Shown in pieces: positions 14,015 to 21,484 of a DNA stretch of 60,987 nucleotides; the stretch's first letter is position 1, and every line of letters begins with the position of its first letter. Below the pieces are notes generated by a model. The model was not told where the DNA came from. It saw nothing but the letters and a program-made list of their open reading frames with translations, and searched no databases. This stretch comes from Promicromonosporaceae bacterium (GTDB lineage: Bacteria; Actinomycetota; Actinomycetes; Actinomycetales; Cellulomonadaceae). The stretch covers positions 1 through 60,987 of the forward strand of contig WRHK01000021.1 of the NCBI GenBank assembly GCA_009783295.1. The letters run 5' to 3'. The translations under genes and the position numbers were made by a program.

Positions 14015-14731
14015 ATGGCGAAGCACAGCAAGGCCTACCGGGCCGTCGCGGACAAGATCGACCGCGACTCGCTCTACGCCCCGCTCGACGCGGTGCGTCT
14101 GGCCAAGGAGACCTCGACCACCAAGTACGACGCGACCGTCGAGGTCGCGTTCCGTCTCGGCGTCGACCCGCGCAAGGCGGACCAGATGGTCCGCGGCACG
14201 GTCAACCTGCCGCACGGCACGGGCAAGACCGCCCGCGTCCTGGTGTTCGCGAACGGCCCGAAGGCCGCCGAGGCCGAGGCCGCCGGCGCCGACATCGTCG
14301 GTGGTGACGAGCTCATCGAGCGCGTGGCCGCCGGTTTCACCGACTTCGACTCGGCCGTCGCCACCCCGGACCTCATGGGCAAGGTCGGCCGCCTGGGCCG
14401 CGTGCTCGGCCCGCGTGGCCTCATGCCGAACCCGAAGACCGGCACCGTGACGATGGACGTGGCCAAGGCCGTGTCCGAGATCAAGGGCGGCAAGATCGAG
14501 TTCCGCGTCGACAAGCACGCGAACCTGCACTTCATCATCGGCAAGGTCTCGTTCGACGAGAAGCAGCTGGTGGAGAACTACGCCGCCGCGCTCGAGGAGA
14601 TCCTGCGCCTCAAGCCGTCGACGTCGAAGGGTCGCTACCTGACGAAGGCGACGATCGCGACGACGATGGGCCCGGGCATCCCGGTCGACCCGTCGCGCAC
14701 GACCAAGCTCACGGAGGAGACCGCGGCCTGA
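14015..14731 (+). CDS. rplA: 50S ribosomal protein L1
   Basis: A 238-residue L1, the mobile L1-stalk protein at the E site and often an autogenous repressor of rplKA. The conserved [21 protein letters not shown] region is present (about residues 127-148). AAGGAGAAG is the ribosome site. A strong hairpin follows, ending the operon before the accessory sigma/protease island. Confidence 0.97.
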
Positions 14732-14783: not shown

Positions 14784-14846
14784 GCGTGTATCACCATGCG
14801 ACCGACGGCCTCTCTGTTCGTGACAGCGGCAGGCCGAGCGGCCGGA

Positions 14847-14855
14847 GGGTGAAAT
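14847..14855 (+). promoter_or_regulatory. GGGTGAAAT motif upstream of the ECF sigma gene
   Basis: The nonamer GGGTGAAAT lies 103 bases before the sigma-factor start. The same nonamer lies 48 bases before the CHAT gene (18065-18073). ECF sigma factors usually control their own promoter, so this may be part of a shared recognition element. No convincing partner element at fixed spacing was found. Confidence 0.35.
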
Positions 14856-14958: not shown

Positions 14959-15600
14959 ATGAGTGCTGAAGACGTACCGGACGAGTCGGTCGCGAACCTC
15001 GAGGGGTCGCAGACCCTGGGGGACCGCGCGGCGCACGCGCTGCTCGAGTACCGCGAGGGCCGCACCGCTCCGATGGCCGACCTCGTCCGCGAGGCCACCC
15101 CTCTCCTCTGGCACACGGTGCGCGCCCAGGGCGTCGACCGCGACACGGCCGACGACGTCGTGCAGTCCGTCTGGGCCGCGCTGGTGCGGCACGCCGACAC
15201 GATCGCGGAACCGCACGCCGTCCTCAAGTGGCTCCTGGTGACGGCCCGCCGGGCCTCCTGGGAGGCCGTGCGGCACACGCGCGAGGACCTGCGACGTCGT
15301 GCCGAGCTCCCCGACGACACCCCGGACAACCCGTACACGCTCCGCGACCCGCAGCCGGGGCCGGACGCCCAGGTGCTGTCCGAGGAACGCGACCGCATGG
15401 TGTGGCGCGCGCTCTCGCGCCTGCCCGAGCGGTGCCAGGAGCTGCTGAGACTCGTCTCGCTCGCCGACCGGCCTGACTACCGGATGATCTCGACGGCGAT
15501 CGGAATGCCGGTGGGCAGCATCGGCGCGACCCGGGGGCGGTGCCTCGCGAAGCTGAGGACCGTCCTCGACGACATGGGAGAGGACCCGTGGACAGCATGA
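14959..15600 (+). CDS. ECF-type sigma-70 family RNA polymerase sigma factor
   Basis: A 213-residue two-domain (group IV) sigma factor. Region 2 (about residues 36-110) has the core-binding DDVVQ motif (65-69) and the WLLVTARR segment that recognises the -10. Region 4 (about 148-202) ends in IGMPVGSIGATRGRCLAKLR, the helix-turn-helix that reads the -35. The ATG at 14959 has a GGGAGAG site 5-10 bases upstream; an upstream ATG (14854) would add 35 residues through the promoter motif. It overlaps the next gene, as sigma/anti-sigma pairs do, and opens the S8/CHAT protease island. It probably controls the island. Confidence 0.9.
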   Translation: MSAEDVPDESVANLEGSQTLGDRAAHALLEYREGRTAPMADLVREATPLLWHTVRAQGVDRDTADDVVQSVWAALVRHADTIAEPHAVLKWLLVTARRASWEAVRHTREDLRRRAELPDDTPDNPYTLRDPQPGPDAQVLSEERDRMVWRALSRLPERCQELLRLVSLADRPDYRMISTAIGMPVGSIGATRGRCLAKLRTVLDDMGEDPWTA

Positions 15601-16079
15601 ACTACGCTCCGGACGCCCCGATCGACGACCAGGACGCTGCAGTCCTCGACAGCCTCGCCCGTGCCCTCGGCACGCTCGACCCCGTCCCGGACGGCCTGAT
15701 CGAACGCTCCCTGTTCGCGATGACGCTCGCCGCGCTCGAGGGCGAGGTCATGTCGATGCAAGAGGTCGACACGCTCGCCGGCGCGATCCGCGGCGACACC
15801 GCCCCGGTCGAGGCGCGCACGATCACCTTCACGCACGAGACGCTCACGGTCATGGTCGCGCTGTCGGCCGCCGACTCCGGGCTGGTCCGCATCGACGGCT
15901 GGCTCGTCCCGGCCGCGGAGCTGGTCGTCGAGCTGCGGCAGCCCGACGGGGACCGGTCCACGACGTCCGACCAGGACGGGCGCTTCTCCTTCGACCTCGT
16001 CGAGCGCGGGCCGGCGAGCCTGCTGGTGCGACCCGCTGACGGCGGCGCGCCCGTGGTGACGCCCGTGGTGGAGCTGTGA
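15588..16079 (+). CDS. Small protein with helical N-terminus and carboxypeptidase-regulatory-like beta domain; possible anti-sigma or substrate
   Basis: A 163-residue protein without signal peptide or membrane segment. Residues about 15-60 are helical (AAVLDSLARALGTLDPVPDGLIERSLFAM, AALEGEV). Residues about 90-160 look like a transthyretin/carboxypeptidase-regulatory beta sandwich (VRIDGWLVPAAELVVELRQPDG, DQDGRFSFDLVERGPASLLVR). I recognise no named family with certainty. It overlaps the sigma gene by 13 bases with the GTG start (GGGAGAGG site), or by 4 from the ATG at 15597, and shares GTGA with the S8 protease gene. Position and coupling suggest it restrains the sigma factor or is a protease substrate; both are inference. 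Confidence 0.7.
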   Translation: MDSMNYAPDAPIDDQDAAVLDSLARALGTLDPVPDGLIERSLFAMTLAALEGEVMSMQEVDTLAGAIRGDTAPVEARTITFTHETLTVMVALSAADSGLVRIDGWLVPAAELVVELRQPDGDRSTTSDQDGRFSFDLVERGPASLLVRPADGGAPVVTPVVEL

Positions 16080-18040
16080 GCACGCCGGACGACGGCGGGG
16101 CGACGCCCCGCACCTGGTCGGCGAGGCAGCAGCGCGACTGGGCGCTGAGGCTCCAGTGGCGCACGCGCGCGCTGGACCCGACGACGGCCCACCGGGCGCC
16201 GAGCGACGAGTCCGCGGCGACCCAGCCGCTGCTCCAGCCCACCTGGTACGTGGGCGACCGCCTGCTGCTCGACCGCGCGGCCCCGCCCGAGGGCGCCGGG
16301 ACGCGCGGCCCGGACGACTGGTTCGAGCGCCTCGTCGAGATTGCCCGCGAGCACGACCTGGATGCTCGGATCGAGCCCGAGACCTACGACGACCTGCACC
16401 TCATGACGGCCGTGGCCGACGAGCTCGGCCTGCGCGACTCGACGCGCGAGCGCCTGCGCCGCGTGTTCGGCACGTCGGTGCTGCTGGCGCCGCGCGCGGT
16501 GGGTCCGCAGCCCGACGCCTGGCTGCTGCGCACCCGTCTGCGCGACCGCGACCGCCACGAGTTCCCCGTGGCCCTCGACCACGTGATCGTGCCCGCGGGC
16601 GGCATCGGCGGCGGGGCGGCCACGCAGCCCCAGCCGCTGGCCGCGACCCAGCCGTTCGTGCACCCGCTGTCGATGACGACCGGGTACAGCATGACCACGG
16701 GCTACCCCATGACCAGCGGGTACTCGATGACGACGGGCTACCCCGTGCAGGCCACCTCGATGACCACGGGCTACCCGGTCACGGGGCTGAGCGAGTACGT
16801 CGTGGCCGGCTGGGGCGGCCGCCAGCCCGTCGCCTGGGTGGGCGCCGAGCCGCGCGGCGACATGCCTGAGGCCGGCGAGAACGAGTTCGCCGGCAAGGAC
16901 GGCGGGCGGCGGCCCGTGGTCGCGCTGCTCGACACCGGCGTGGGGGAGCACCCGTGGTTCTCCGGCGGCGGGTCCCCTGCGCGGCGGGGCGACGTCGTCG
17001 TGCGCGACCCCGAGGTGTTCCGCGGCGACGCGACGAGCGTCGTCGGGGTGCAGCCCAAGCCGCAGTTCGACTACCAGGACCCCGAGCGCGGCGGCGTCTC
17101 GATGAACCCGCTCACCGGGCCGCTCGACCCGGTGGCCGGGCACGGCACGTTCATGGCCGGGCTGGTCCACCAGCTCTGCCCGGACGCCACGATCCTGGCC
17201 CCGCGCGTCTACGGCGGCAGCGGCATCGTTCCGGAGCGCAACCTGCTGCGCTCGCTGCGCCGGCTGCTGCTGCTGCACCTGCGCGGCCTGGCAGGCGTGG
17301 GGGGCTGGGCTCCGGTCGACGTGCTGGTGCTGTCGCTCGGCTACTACCACGAGAGCCCCGCCGACACCTCGTTCGACGCCCCCCTGCGGACGGTGCTCGA
17401 CGAGCTGCGGCACTGGGGCGTGCTGGTGGTGTGCGCGACGGGCAACGACGGCCAGGTCCGCGAGACCTTCCCGGCGGCGTTCGCGCCGAGGACGGACCGC
17501 GACGGCGCCAAGCCGGCCTACGCGCCGGGCTTCCACGAGAAGACGCCCCCGGTGATCGCCGTCGGCGCGCTCAACCCGGACGGGTCCACGGCCCTGTTCA
17601 GCAACGACGGCGAGTGGGTCACGTGCCTGCGCAAGGGCGCGTCGCTGGTCAGCACGGCGCCGCAGACGATCGACGGCGCCGTCGCGCCCACCCGCTACCT
17701 GCCGGAGCTGTTCAGCAAGGGGCACCACCGCTCGACCATCGACCCCGAGGGCTTCCAGGGCGGGTTCGCCGTCTGGAGCGGCACGTCGTTCTCCGCGCCG
17801 GTGCTGGCTGGCGAGCTCGCCGAGCAGGCCCGCCTGCGGTTCGACGGCGCCCACGCGGCGCCCGACGCCGGCCCGGACCACCGCGAGCCGGACGACCCCG
17901 AGGACGCGCCCAACGGTGCCGACTCGCCGCAGGCCCGCGCGGTCTACGACGCCCGGCGGCGCCAGGTGCACCGCGGGTGGCAGGTGCTCCGCACCGTCGT
18001 CGACGTCCCCGGAGAGGGGGCGGGGCCTGCGGCCCGGTGA
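16076..18040 (+). CDS. Cytosolic S8 (subtilisin-like) serine protease with N-terminal domain and SMTTGY-repeat linker
   Basis: A 654-residue protease with no signal peptide or membrane helix, unusual for subtilisins. An N-terminal domain of unknown fold (about 1-195) is joined by a repeat linker (199-234; five SMTTGY-like hexapeptides) to a peptidase S8 domain (about 278-590). The triad is complete: Asp286 (VVALLDTGVG), His356 (GHGTFMAGL), Ser571 (SGTSFSAPV), with oxyanion Asn457 (CATGND). The C-terminal 60 residues are charged and low-complexity. GTG start, coupled to the preceding gene. Next to the sigma factor and CHAT protease it likely acts in a regulated intracellular proteolytic response. 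Targets are unknown. Confidence 0.88.
   Translation: MSTPDDGGATPRTWSARQQRDWALRLQWRTRALDPTTAHRAPSDESAATQPLLQPTWYVGDRLLLDRAAPPEGAGTRGPDDWFERLVEIAREHDLDARIEPETYDDLHLMTAVADELGLRDSTRERLRRVFGTSVLLAPRAVGPQPDAWLLRTRLRDRDRHEFPVALDHVIVPAGGIGGGAATQPQPLAATQPFVHPLSMTTGYSMTTGYPMTSGYSMTTGYPVQATSMTTGYPVTGLSEYVVAGWGGRQPVAWVGAEPRGDMPEAGENEFAGKDGGRRPVVALLDTGVGEHPWFSGGGSPARRGDVVVRDPEVFRGDATSVVGVQPKPQFDYQDPERGGVSMNPLTGPLDPVAGHGTFMAGLVHQLCPDATILAPRVYGGSGIVPERNLLRSLRRLLLLHLRGLAGVGGWAPVDVLVLSLGYYHESPADTSFDAPLRTVLDELRHWGVLVVCATGNDGQVRETFPAAFAPRTDRDGAKPAYAPGFHEKTPPVIAVGALNPDGSTALFSNDGEWVTCLRKGASLVSTAPQTIDGAVAPTRYLPELFSKGHHRSTIDPEGFQGGFAVWSGTSFSAPVLAGELAEQARLRFDGAHAAPDAGPDHREPDDPEDAPNGADSPQARAVYDARRRQVHRGWQVLRTVVDVPGEGAGPAAR
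16670..16780 (+). repeat. In-frame hexapeptide repeats (SMTTGY/PMTSGY) in the S8 protease
   Basis: About 18-base units encode SMTTGY, SMTTGY, PMTSGY, SMTTGY, then PVQAT, then SMTTGY. The codons vary between copies (TCG/AGC, ACG/ACC), so the peptide rather than the DNA seems to be kept. It links the N-terminal domain to the catalytic domain. Confidence 0.85.
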
Positions 18041-18064
18041 CGGTGACCGCGTTGCGGAACGGGC

Positions 18065-18073
18065 GGGTGAAAT
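18065..18073 (+). promoter_or_regulatory. GGGTGAAAT motif upstream of the CHAT gene
   Basis: This nonamer is identical to the one upstream of the island's sigma gene and sits in the only sizeable gap within the island (81 bases). It suggests the CHAT gene has its own promoter responding to the same factor. Function inferred. Confidence 0.35.
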
Positions 18074-18121
18074 CGAGGGATCGCCGGCTCCACGGAGGTC
18101 GTGCGGACGTAACCTCACGAC

Positions 18122-20710
18122 GTGTCCGACGCCCTCGTGCGCGCACGCGCGCTGTACGCGGACGCCCATCGCGCGGACGAGCTCGAACGGTTCGATGAGG
18201 CGATCGCGGGGTTTCGCGCGCTCCTGGACATGCTCGACGCCACGGACTTCGACGACGAACGTCCGGACGCCGGCAAGCTCCGCGTCCGCACGATCCTGGG
18301 CATCGCTCGGGCCCGCTACGAGTCGACGGGCGACCTCGCGGGGGCGATGAGCACCATCGACGAGGCGGAGAAGTGCGCCATCGACGAGGGGCTCGAGACC
18401 GACCGGCTGGCCGCCCAGGGCCAGCGGGGCCTGCTGCTGCTCCGCTCGGGCGACGTCGCCGGCGCGCTCGAGGCGCTGGACGCCATCGCGCCCTCGCCCG
18501 AAGCACCGCCGTCGCGCGACCTCGCGGTCACCCTGCTCAACCGCGGCGTGCTCCACCTCGACTACGGCAGCCCCGAGAACGCCGGCCCCGACCTGCGCGC
18601 CGCCGCGGACGTCGCGTCGCGGGCGGGGGAGCGGAACGTCGAGGCGATGGCCCGCCACAACCTGGGCCTCCTGTCGTTCCTCCAGGGCGACCTGCCCTCG
18701 GCGCTGCGCGAGATGTCGGAGGCCGCACACCTCGGCGACACCCCCCAGCCGGTCGGCCTGCTCGACCGCGCGCGCGTGCTCGCCGACGCAGGGCTGGTCA
18801 CGGACGCCGTCGAGGCCCTGGAGCACGCGGCGGAGCTGCTCGAGGGCGGTTCGGTGCTGGTCCGGGCGGAGGTCGAGCTGACCCTGGCGAGCTGCCTCAT
18901 GGACCTGCGCCAGCCGGAGCGCGCGGCCGCGGCGGCGCGGGCGGCCGCGACGGCGTTCGCCCACGCGGACAACGAGCCGTGGGCGCTGCGCGCCCAGGTG
19001 GTCGAGCTCGAGGCGCTGCTGAGCGCGGACCGGTGGACCCGGACGCGCGCCCCCCGGGCGGAGCTGCGCCGCCGGGCGGCCCGCGCCCGCGACCTGGCCG
19101 CCCACGACGAGCCGCGTGGCGTCGTGGGCCGCATGGTGGTGACCTATCCGGCGCTGCTCGCGGCCGCCGAGTGGTCGGCCATCGCGGGCGACCTCGACGC
19201 CGCCCGCGCGCACCTCTCTGGCGTCCCGGCCGACCTCGGGACGGCGCCGCTGCCGCTCCGCCTCGGGCGTTCCGCCGTCGCCGCCCGGATCGCGTTCGCG
19301 TCCGGCCGCCGCGCCGAGGGCGTCCGCGCGATCCGGCACGGCCAGCGGATGCTCGTGGACCACCGCGGCCTGGGCACGGTCGAGGCGGTCGCCGCCAGCG
19401 GCGTGCACGCGATGCAGCTCAACCTGGTGGACCTCCAGGCTGCCCGCGCCTCGGGGGACGCGGGCGCGATCTTCGACGCCCTCGAGCGCGGCCGGGCCAC
19501 CGCTGCCGGCGCGGCGCGCGTGGTCCCGCCCGACGACCGCGAGCTCGCCGACCTGCTCGAGCAGGCCCGTGCGGCGCACCAGGCCGCGCTCGCCCTCGGC
19601 CCGACGGCCACGCCCGAGGGCCTGCGGGCCAAGCGGGCGCACCTGGTCGATGCTCGCCGCCTGCAGTCGAGGGCGCGCGAGCGGGCCTGGCAGGTCGAGG
19701 GCGCACGCCGCCCGGTCGAGCCCGCCACGGTGCGCATGCTCACGGCGGCGCTGCGCGAGCTCGACGAGTCCGACCGCGGCGCGCCCGTGGTCGCCTCGTA
19801 CGTCTCGATGGGTGGCGAGGTGCTGGCCGTCCGCTCCGACGTCCGAGGCCAGACCCTGCACCGGCTGGCCCAGCGGGACGAGGTGATCGAGCTGGCGCAC
19901 CGGGCGCACGCCGACCTCGCGATCGTCGCGAACGAGCTCATTCCCGCGCCGCTGCGTGCGGCAGCGTCCAGCTCGCTCACGCGCGCCCTCGCCCGGCTCG
20001 ACGACCTCCTGGTCACCCCGCTGGGAGTGGAGCAGGACCTGCTCGTCGCGGCCCGGGGGCGCCTACTCACGCTGCCCTGGTCGTCGGTGCCGTCCCGCGC
20101 CGAGCACAGCACGTGGGTGGCCGACCGCGTCGACCTGCGCCGCGGCCTCGCCGACGCCGGGGTCGGGCGTCCGGGCGGCGTCGTCGTCCTCGCCGGGCCG
20201 GGCACGGACGGCGGGTCGGGGGAGGCCGGCGCCGTGGCCGCGACCTGGGCGGGGGCCCGCCTGCTGACCGACGACGACGCGACGGCCGCCGCCGCCGTCG
20301 ATGCGCTCGGCAAGGCGGCCGTGGTGCACCTCGCTGCGCACGGCGGCCACTCGCGCGACAACGCGCTGTTCTCGTCGCTGCGGCTCGCCGACGGCCCGCT
20401 GTTCGCCCACGAGCTCGACGGCGTCGACCTCACGGGTGCGGTGGTGGTCCTCTCGGCCTGCGAGCTGGGCCTGTCCACGTCCGACGTCGGCGGCGAGGCC
20501 CTCGGCTTCGCGAGCGTGCTGCTGCGTCACGGGGCCCGCGCGGTGGTCGCGGCGGTCGCCCCGCTGCGCGACGACGTCGCCGTCCGCGTCATGCCCCGCC
20601 TGCACGGTGGCCTGCGCGACGGCCTGCCGCCCGGCGCGGCGCTCGCCGCCGCGACCGCCGCGGAGCGGGAGCCCGTCCCGCTCGTCTGCTTCGGCCCGCT
20701 CGTGCTGTGA
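18122..20710 (+). CDS. TPR-CHAT protein (caspase-like cysteine protease)
   Basis: An 862-residue protein. Residues about 1-480 are Ala-rich helical hairpins of TPR type (ALYADAHRADELERFDEAIAGF; GLLLLRSGDVAGALEAL; HNLGLLSFLQGDLPSALREM). Residues about 560-862 form a CHAT domain. The catalytic pair is His740 (VVHLAAHGGHS) and Cys780 (VLSACELGLS), both intact. CHAT domains are separase/caspase-like proteases; TPR-CHAT proteins act as activated proteases in type III-E CRISPR and other conflict systems. No signal peptide or NTPase domain is present. GTG start with no clear ribosome site. It ends the sigma/S8/CHAT island; partners and substrate are unknown. Confidence 0.9.
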   Translation: MSDALVRARALYADAHRADELERFDEAIAGFRALLDMLDATDFDDERPDAGKLRVRTILGIARARYESTGDLAGAMSTIDEAEKCAIDEGLETDRLAAQGQRGLLLLRSGDVAGALEALDAIAPSPEAPPSRDLAVTLLNRGVLHLDYGSPENAGPDLRAAADVASRAGERNVEAMARHNLGLLSFLQGDLPSALREMSEAAHLGDTPQPVGLLDRARVLADAGLVTDAVEALEHAAELLEGGSVLVRAEVELTLASCLMDLRQPERAAAAARAAATAFAHADNEPWALRAQVVELEALLSADRWTRTRAPRAELRRRAARARDLAAHDEPRGVVGRMVVTYPALLAAAEWSAIAGDLDAARAHLSGVPADLGTAPLPLRLGRSAVAARIAFASGRRAEGVRAIRHGQRMLVDHRGLGTVEAVAASGVHAMQLNLVDLQAARASGDAGAIFDALERGRATAAGAARVVPPDDRELADLLEQARAAHQAALALGPTATPEGLRAKRAHLVDARRLQSRARERAWQVEGARRPVEPATVRMLTAALRELDESDRGAPVVASYVSMGGEVLAVRSDVRGQTLHRLAQRDEVIELAHRAHADLAIVANELIPAPLRAAASSSLTRALARLDDLLVTPLGVEQDLLVAARGRLLTLPWSSVPSRAEHSTWVADRVDLRRGLADAGVGRPGGVVVLAGPGTDGGSGEAGAVAATWAGARLLTDDDATAAAAVDALGKAAVVHLAAHGGHSRDNALFSSLRLADGPLFAHELDGVDLTGAVVVLSACELGLSTSDVGGEALGFASVLLRHGARAVVAAVAPLRDDVAVRVMPRLHGGLRDGLPPGAALAAATAAEREPVPLVCFGPLVL

Positions 20711-20962: not shown

Positions 20963-21484
20963 ATGGCGAGGCCGGACAAGGCAGCCGCTGTCGCAGAGGT
21001 CGCGGACAAGTTCCGCGAGTCCAACGCGGCCGTGCTGACCGAGTACCGCGGGCTCACCGTGAAGCAGCTCAAGGAGCTGCGTCGCGCGCTCGGCGGCAAC
21101 GCAACCTACGCCGTGGTGAAGAACACGCTCACCCAGATTGCGGCCAAGGAGGCGGGTGTCGAGGGTCTCGACGCCGACCTCAAGGGCCCGTCCGCCATCG
21201 CGTTCGTGACCGGAGACCCGGTCGAGTCCGCGAAGGCGCTGCGTGACTTCGCCAAGGCCAACCCCGCACTGATCATCAAGGGCGGTGTCCTCGACGGGCG
21301 CGGCCTGACCGCTGCGGAGATCACGAAGCTCGCGGACCTCGAGTCCCGCGAGGTTCTGCTGGCCAAGGCGGCCGGCGCGATGAAGGCAAAGATCAGCCAG
21401 GCTGCCTACGCCTTCACCGCGAAGCCCGCCCAGGTCGCTCGCGTCATCGACGCCCTGCGTCAGAAGCAGGAAGCCGCTGCCTGA
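20963..21484 (+). CDS. rplJ: 50S ribosomal protein L10
   Basis: A 173-residue L10. The N-terminal rRNA-binding domain ([25 protein letters not shown]) and the C-terminal helix that anchors L7/L12 dimers are present. It is the base of the ribosomal stalk. GGAAGG precedes the ATG. It heads rplJ-rplL, here separated from rplKA by the accessory island. Confidence 0.97.

Follow-up and report, generated by a model that had tools for sequence, protein, structure and literature searches.

A four-gene sigma factor and protease island of Actinobacteria as a candidate autoregulated, protease-triggered switch of the ECF54 type

We describe here, within a stretch of 60,987 nucleotides from a Promicromonosporaceae bacterium (assembly GCA_009783295.1, contig WRHK01000021.1; hereafter, the window), an island of four genes that encode an extracytoplasmic function (ECF) sigma factor, a small protein of 160 amino acids (aa), a subtilisin-like protease of family S8 and a TPR-CHAT protein. 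The four genes almost certainly constitute one system, and we propose, with moderate confidence, that this system is an autoregulated, protease-triggered sigma switch of the ECF54 type. The proposal is built on the four-gene unit, the catalytic residues, a promoter motif and its position, the invariance of one arginine (Arg65) of the small protein and the pattern of a tandem repeat array in the S8 protease. A protease-linked response around the sigma factor had been suggested in an initial annotation of the same DNA, and it is still the best reading, with the four-gene unit and the catalytic residues kept; the promoter, the repeat array, the invariant linker arginine and the sigma-inhibitor role of the third protein of type III-E CRISPR systems were absent from that annotation.

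Results

The four-gene unit and its conservation

The sigma factor gene (14959..15600; this and all other window features are on the + strand) was recognized by its open reading frame (ORF) and by Pfam and NCBIfam matches (Sigma70_r2, E 1.4e-6; Sigma70_r4_2, only E 0.067; sigma70-ECF, E 2.4e-18 over residues 75-237), and has an alternative in-frame start at 14854 that would make it longer. An ATGA (15597-15600), overlapping the sigma stop, joins it to the small-protein gene (15597..16079), and a GTGA (16076-16079) joins the latter to the gene of the 654-aa S8 protease (16076..18040; Peptidase_S8, E 1.7e-17). The gene of the 862-aa TPR-CHAT protein (18122..20710; CHAT, E 5.7e-22; TPR_12, E 2.5e-4, under its cut-off) follows after 81 bp, and its CHAT protease domain (19985..20662) carries His740 (20339-20341) and Cys780 (20459-20461).

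A search with the single S8 sequence was positive in 17 of 296 genomes of the class, its own genome included. Adding an S8 profile scan gave 97 loci, i.e., the window, 16 from the class genomes and 80 from the scan; these 80 are the best of 418 confirmed relatives, so the sample is biased to the best-scoring matches. Sigma factor, small protein, S8 and TPR-CHAT occur together on one strand in 89 of the 97 loci and, in the less biased class sample, in 14 of the 16 other S8-bearing genomes, the exceptions being L032 and L033 (a 5-kb contig). Among the eight incomplete loci, L033, L054 and L063 are short contigs (3-5 kb), L032, L056 and L060 have S8 and CHAT alone, L062 is without CHAT, and L093 has S8 alone. 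The gene order is sigma-small-S8-CHAT in 79 loci and S8-sigma-small-CHAT in seven, with three other orders seen in one locus each, which ORF boundaries may partly explain. Genera represented in the scan include Oerskovia, Cellulomonas, Cellulosimicrobium, Isoptericola, Promicromonospora, Microbacterium, Nocardioides and Klenkia, among others.

The catalytic residues are constant as well. Asp286, His356 and Ser571 of the S8 protease, as well as its oxyanion Asn457, are invariant in all 91 aligned rows (91 of 97 proteins; four were excluded by length and two as near-duplicates), and His740 and Cys780 of CHAT are invariant in the 85 rows that reach them, the remaining 8 of 93 rows being gapped there. 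The initial annotation was right about four same-strand genes with the first three translationally coupled, about the identity of each product (the small protein's beta-domain agrees with a predicted beta-sandwich), and about the full S8 triad and the intact CHAT dyad in an 862-residue protein; co-occurrence of the genes and constancy of these residues, which it had named as checks, were both found in related genomes.

A small-protein profile (nine candidates scored per genome) was run against 396 genomes of the phylum and was positive at E 1e-6 in 33, other classes among them. Nineteen places from this search and six others make up 25 further loci, two of which (L210 and L186) seem to coincide with L062 and L074. 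Here, sigma and small-protein genes are neighbours in at least 21 cases (a sigma is present in 24 of the 25 with a looser filter), and S8 and CHAT are both nearby in 15.

A promoter motif in front of the operon

A model-free count of word pairs found GTATC-N17-CTCCT in 22 of 59 non-redundant upstream regions, compared to a top count of five in five shuffles. The corresponding weight matrix has the consensus KGTATCA-N16-CTCYT, and at a threshold of 17 bits, with the matrix trained on the same loci that were scored, it finds the motif ahead of the operon's first gene in 78 of 95 windows and just 3' of CHAT in 37 of 84, vs. 25 sites elsewhere in 3.76 million strand-bases. In the window, the site (TGTATCAC-N14-CCTCTCT, 14787..14815, 21.9 bits) lies 5' of the operon, and no motif was found behind the window's own CHAT gene. 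The motif sits 5' of S8 in the S8-first operons and, in genome G296, 5' of both a sigma plus small-protein locus (L205) and a separate S8 plus CHAT locus (L056). We suggest that the operon's own sigma factor reads the motif and would thereby be autoregulated.

The scan of the window's own genome gave three matches vs. one with the reversed pattern, and we claim no regulon. One of these is the operon itself, one lies 5' of a protein that looks secreted by eye, and one lies 5' of a 444-aa protein (L146:2738-4072; G000:C20, minus strand), which has a sub-threshold alpha/beta-hydrolase match (E 0.0054) behind a consensus-level motif and is a possible regulon member. In 14 other genomes there were 27 matches vs. 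five with the reversed pattern; judging from coordinates, 13 of the 27 are at the operon or just behind it, and three of the 14 genomes have none. As a side observation, an ATPase with a P-loop-like motif lies beside CHAT behind the same sigma-type motif in two loci (L201:13912-15876 and L202:852-2675), in which the motif before the own S8 or sigma gene is weak (17.6 bits, L201) or absent.

The small protein as candidate anti-sigma factor

The AlphaFold model of the small protein (mean pLDDT 88.7) consists of two helices (residues 11-27 and 34-62), a low-confidence, flexible linker (about 56-72) and a beta-sandwich (75-160) that resembles CarboxypepD_reg; the Pfam match is E 2e-5 in the window's protein, under its cut-off, and 35 of 88 members match at E<=0.01. 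In an alignment of 88 of the 92 extracted sequences (L065, L077, L082 and L092 were left out), Asp28, Pro31 and Arg65 are the sole invariant positions. Arg65 (codon 15789..15791), present in 88 of 88 rows, falls in the inter-domain linker in the context [AG]-[VAT]-R-[GS] (by commonest residues), and it is kept in 27 of 28 rows from the further loci, with the arginine one column off in L204. We regard Arg65 as a candidate cleavage site or, alternatively, a residue that may touch the sigma factor.

In the 97-locus set, and in at least 21 of the 25 further loci, the small protein is encoded next to its sigma factor, and it stays with the sigma where the proteases lie elsewhere; we take it as a candidate anti-sigma factor. 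Two of the 92 small proteins, as well as 17 of 93 CHAT proteins, exceed a crude hydropathy threshold, so that solubility of the partners is an assumption here. A role as a carboxypeptidase was considered and rejected, the sole match being to the regulatory-like CarboxypepD_reg fold; hence, the "carboxypeptidase" of the ECF54 literature is probably a non-catalytic two-domain protein in this clade.

The S8 protease and its repeat array

The S8 protease looks like a zymogen. In its predicted model (pTM 0.88) a propeptide domain packs on the catalytic domain, and the aligned ranges and lengths take in the propeptides of pro-Tk-subtilisin (2e1p), pro-subtilisin E (3whi) and PCSK9 among the Foldseek candidates, which places the N-terminal pro-domain at residues about 53-173 (16232..16594), ahead of the catalytic domain (16832..17845); no Pfam propeptide family was among the matches of 16 S8 members. 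A hydrophobic stretch in the first 60 residues was seen in none of the 97 S8 proteins, as called, by a crude hydropathy test. Accordingly, the initial claim of an S8 protease with no signal peptide stands, and its location in the cytosol is likely, not proved.

Between the pro-domain and the mature enzyme lies a tandem array of (S/P)MTTGY and degenerate copies (16670..16786). Arrays of short repeats at this junction comprise 57 different units in 80 arrays, with units that are near-identical inside one protein (pN/pS 0.03) and differ between species. Among the 18 S8 proteins from the further loci, 12 also carry arrays (e.g., NPAYQG, NPGYQG and ANPAYQ in L194, L198 and L199), which led us to drop the idea of a late, derived feature; no array was found in the S8 of L192 and L200-L204, and that of L209 is weak (two copies). 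The unit does not recur elsewhere in its own genome, and it was rejected as a cleavage motif common to the partners, with 0 of 77 cases each in sigma, small protein and CHAT of its own locus (at 4 and 5 residues). One locus (L186 and L188) was found to have two S8-CHAT modules and one sigma, with repeat units that differ by module, and offers a natural test of orthogonality. Separately, a 660-aa protein beside a small-protein homolog (L191:8211-10193) starts with short aromatic tandem repeats (GGHGLYPAGHGLYPAGHGPY).

A species-specific repeat tag at the usual activation site of such proteases looks new, and the array combines strong conservation within a protein with fast turnover between species at the very place that controls activation in related proteases. 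One could tentatively read it as a private "barcode", that is, a CRISPR-free switch of TPR-CHAT, anti-sigma factor and ECF sigma in which a single universal arginine is where the inhibitor is cut, and in which repeats that the cognate enzyme alone can open keep the S8 protease locked. We regard this extended version as rather improbable. If true, the repeats would be selected for identity within a protein yet exchanged from one species, or one module of a genome, to the next. Zymogen activation would then be insulated by a principle that is new, and the Csx29-Csx30-sigma module might have arisen from such a system or be its evolutionary cousin. Alternatively, the array might be the precursor of signalling peptides, with S8 cutting its own repeats into exported peptides that report activation to kin. 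Private signals would be expected to have units that are near-identical in one protein and differ between species and between the two modules of the L186 and L188 locus; however, the S8 protease is without a hydrophobic N-terminus, no exporter or receptor gene is seen in the four-gene operon, and the position at an autoprocessing junction explains the array more simply, making this alternative very unlikely.

Elements behind the CHAT gene

Of the 37 second promoters found behind CHAT, 15 (14 of them in Microbacteriaceae) are followed by a conserved structured RNA of ~145 nt, located right behind the motif (e.g., L067:14272-14415). Its 27 pairs have 92.1% of cells paired, with 17 cells changed on both sides vs. 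7.5 in shuffles and 7 pairs vs. 4.3, and 18 further pair types vs. 19.1 in shuffles, so some measures do not exceed the shuffled background. No Rfam match was obtained at gathering thresholds for the seven loci searched, and a covariance model run over 96 loci recovered its 15 source loci plus 18 further rows, each at 26.1 bits or less. This element shows some covariation and is possibly a sigma-dependent non-coding RNA. In other loci the second promoter precedes a protein of ~100 aa (L020:6578-6895, L021:6416-6733, L055:13974-14327 and L064:13912-14208; probably also in the Nocardioides locus L073, where the protein looks similar by eye), for which there was no confident Pfam match and which could be an inhibitor or an output. 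RNA and protein alike may be outputs of the switch.

Genomic setting

In the window, the gene series is rplK, rplA (14015..14731, by Pfam), the four-gene island, rplJ (20963..21484, by Pfam), rplL and then long ORFs of rpoB/rpoC size, the first of which after rplL was taken as rpoB in the flank analysis. In 24 of 97 loci, window included, the genes are likewise flanked by rplA and rplJ, and in a further three, close to contig ends, one of these flanking genes is present; no ribosomal flank of the rplA/rplJ type was found at the remaining loci. A common site in 24 loci argues for old, vertical inheritance in that clade. A mobile or viral origin was rejected, as none of the 14 pattern stretches in viral contigs was confirmed.

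This setting bears on a further alternative, namely that the island is a conflict or suicide system in which CHAT and S8, once phages or toxins attack, break down the proteins of the cell, with the sigma factor amplifying expression of the two. A TPR-CHAT protease does act in a CRISPR system (PMC10028731), the promoter suggests a feedback design, and the CHAT part shows weak likeness to the Csx29 model (E 1.6e-4) and, as the sole PADLOC match, to BovA (E 3.7e-5). On the other hand, the shared rplA-rplJ site fits vertical inheritance over a mobile island, the own genome has no RAMP-family match, and the scan of viral contigs confirmed no relative. Hence, the death or defence role put forward in the initial annotation finds no direct support beyond the weak BovA match, and we consider it unlikely.

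Discussion

We envision the favored switch as follows. At rest, the small protein would bind the ECF sigma factor and hold it off RNA polymerase, and S8 would be a cytosolic zymogen covered by its own propeptide. Once the TPR part senses a signal, the CHAT protease would become active and cut the small protein in the flexible linker by Arg65 and/or S8 in the tandem-repeat junction, and the freed S8 would complete the breakdown of the small protein and perhaps of further substrates. The released sigma factor would transcribe its own operon from KGTATCA-N16-CTCYT (positive feedback) and, in many relatives, would also fire the second promoter behind CHAT. In this scheme, binding between sigma and small protein, the substrate of each protease, the triggering signal and the eventual output are what we infer.

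Several observations weigh against this switch. In the further loci, the motif was not found within 400 bases upstream of sigma or S8 in 15 of 24 cases (it was in 9 of 24, with 29 sites in total in 0.78 million strand-bases; the 25th locus has no sigma or S8 to measure from), implying that the promoter fades in distant clades. At five of these loci (L190, L193, L195, L196 and L197), where sigma and small protein are present, neither S8 nor CHAT was found within 16 kb. The pTM of the small-protein model is 0.59, the 50 Foldseek rows listed are mostly Ig-like sandwiches at E 8e-3 or worse with no anti-sigma fold, and the Pfam matches listed for small-protein members include no anti-sigma family. 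Further, Arg-specific clan CD enzymes have an acidic S1 residue, and none is evident by eye at the matching place of this CHAT, leaving Arg65 unproven as P1; it may contact the sigma factor instead. Finally, by partial distance correlation, sigma goes most closely with CHAT (0.55) rather than with the small protein.

The last point also fits a different circuit, in which the proteases degrade the sigma factor itself until a signal blocks them, with no anti-sigma factor and the small protein as adaptor or chaperone. This idea is in print for ECF54 in a review that assumes no anti-sigma factor (PMC8999054), which itself speaks against our reading, and in 89 of 97 loci the sigma gene is indeed accompanied by those of the two proteases. 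However, the "carboxypeptidase" neighbour matches CarboxypepD_reg alone and stays with sigma apart from the proteases, and sigma-driven protease expression would amount to negative feedback on the sigma, though this is possible. We judge sigma degradation to be distinctly less than probable, and favor release from an inhibitor.

With respect to known systems, two of our loci (L086 and L105) are from Klenkia, presumably of the same family as Geodermatophilus. Geodermatophilus is the listed representative of ECF54 in the above review, whose ECF54 account, citing Casas-Pastor 2021 and Huang 2015, gives carboxypeptidase, subtilase and CHAT neighbours and proposes proteolytic control without an anti-sigma factor (PMC8999054). 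Our island shares this context, i.e., an actinobacterial ECF sigma (sigma70-ECF match, regions 2 and 4) beside carboxypeptidase-like, subtilase and CHAT genes, and thus the set is not undescribed, as the initial annotation had it, since its gene context was already in print and proteolytic control predicted (PMC8999054). It differs in that the supposed carboxypeptidase matches only a regulatory-like fold and has an invariant linker arginine, and in that the promoter, the repeat array and the unlinked sigma/small-protein loci do not appear in the review's account of ECF54 (PMC8999054), though its two sources may contain more. Our literature searches found no functional test of an ECF54-type gene set, and the promoter motif, the repeat-array zymogen and the invariant-arginine linker, not found in print, are new here. 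What was a prediction from gene context can now be tested as a circuit, whose parts are a promoter, a small protein as candidate anti-sigma factor, a candidate site for its cleavage and an S8 protease predicted to be a zymogen.

As for the S8 protease, intracellular subtilisins are known to be without a signal peptide. Like them and other pro-subtilisins (Bacillus clausii ISP, 2wwt/2x8j; 2e1p; 3whi), it has a propeptide before the subtilase domain, but, unlike in them, the propeptide is separated from the mature enzyme by a long, disordered segment of tandem repeats that is specific to the species. The switch would also work like RseA/DegS and RsiW, where a protease frees an ECF sigma factor (PMC10028731), except that neither a membrane anti-sigma factor nor a site-2 protease is among these four genes.

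A parallel is the type III-E CRISPR system (Craspase), in which the TPR-CHAT protein Csx29 cuts Csx30, an inhibitor of an ECF sigma factor, and in which sites for the sigma factor are predicted within the locus itself (PMC10028731). Here, too, a TPR-CHAT protein and an ECF sigma factor are accompanied by a further protein, and sigma-type sites lie in the own locus; the small protein would resemble Csx30 in role, and our operon has an added S8 protease. The CHAT protein scores 20.7 bits against the Csx29 model NF041237, with a short part of the domain aligned, vs. a cut-off of 300, and its genome gave no PF03787 RAMP match, a family that was positive in 4 of 14 control genomes (its detection of Cas7-11 was unchecked, and Cas1 and arrays were not searched). 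A CRISPR link was set aside on this RAMP result, and the operon is not filed as type III-E because of the low Csx29 score and the missing RAMP match. It is intriguing, nonetheless, that the switch proposed here would work like Csx29-Csx30-CASP-sigma without CRISPR, which suggests that the sigma-release logic of type III-E systems may also be part of ordinary actinobacterial chromosomal biology.

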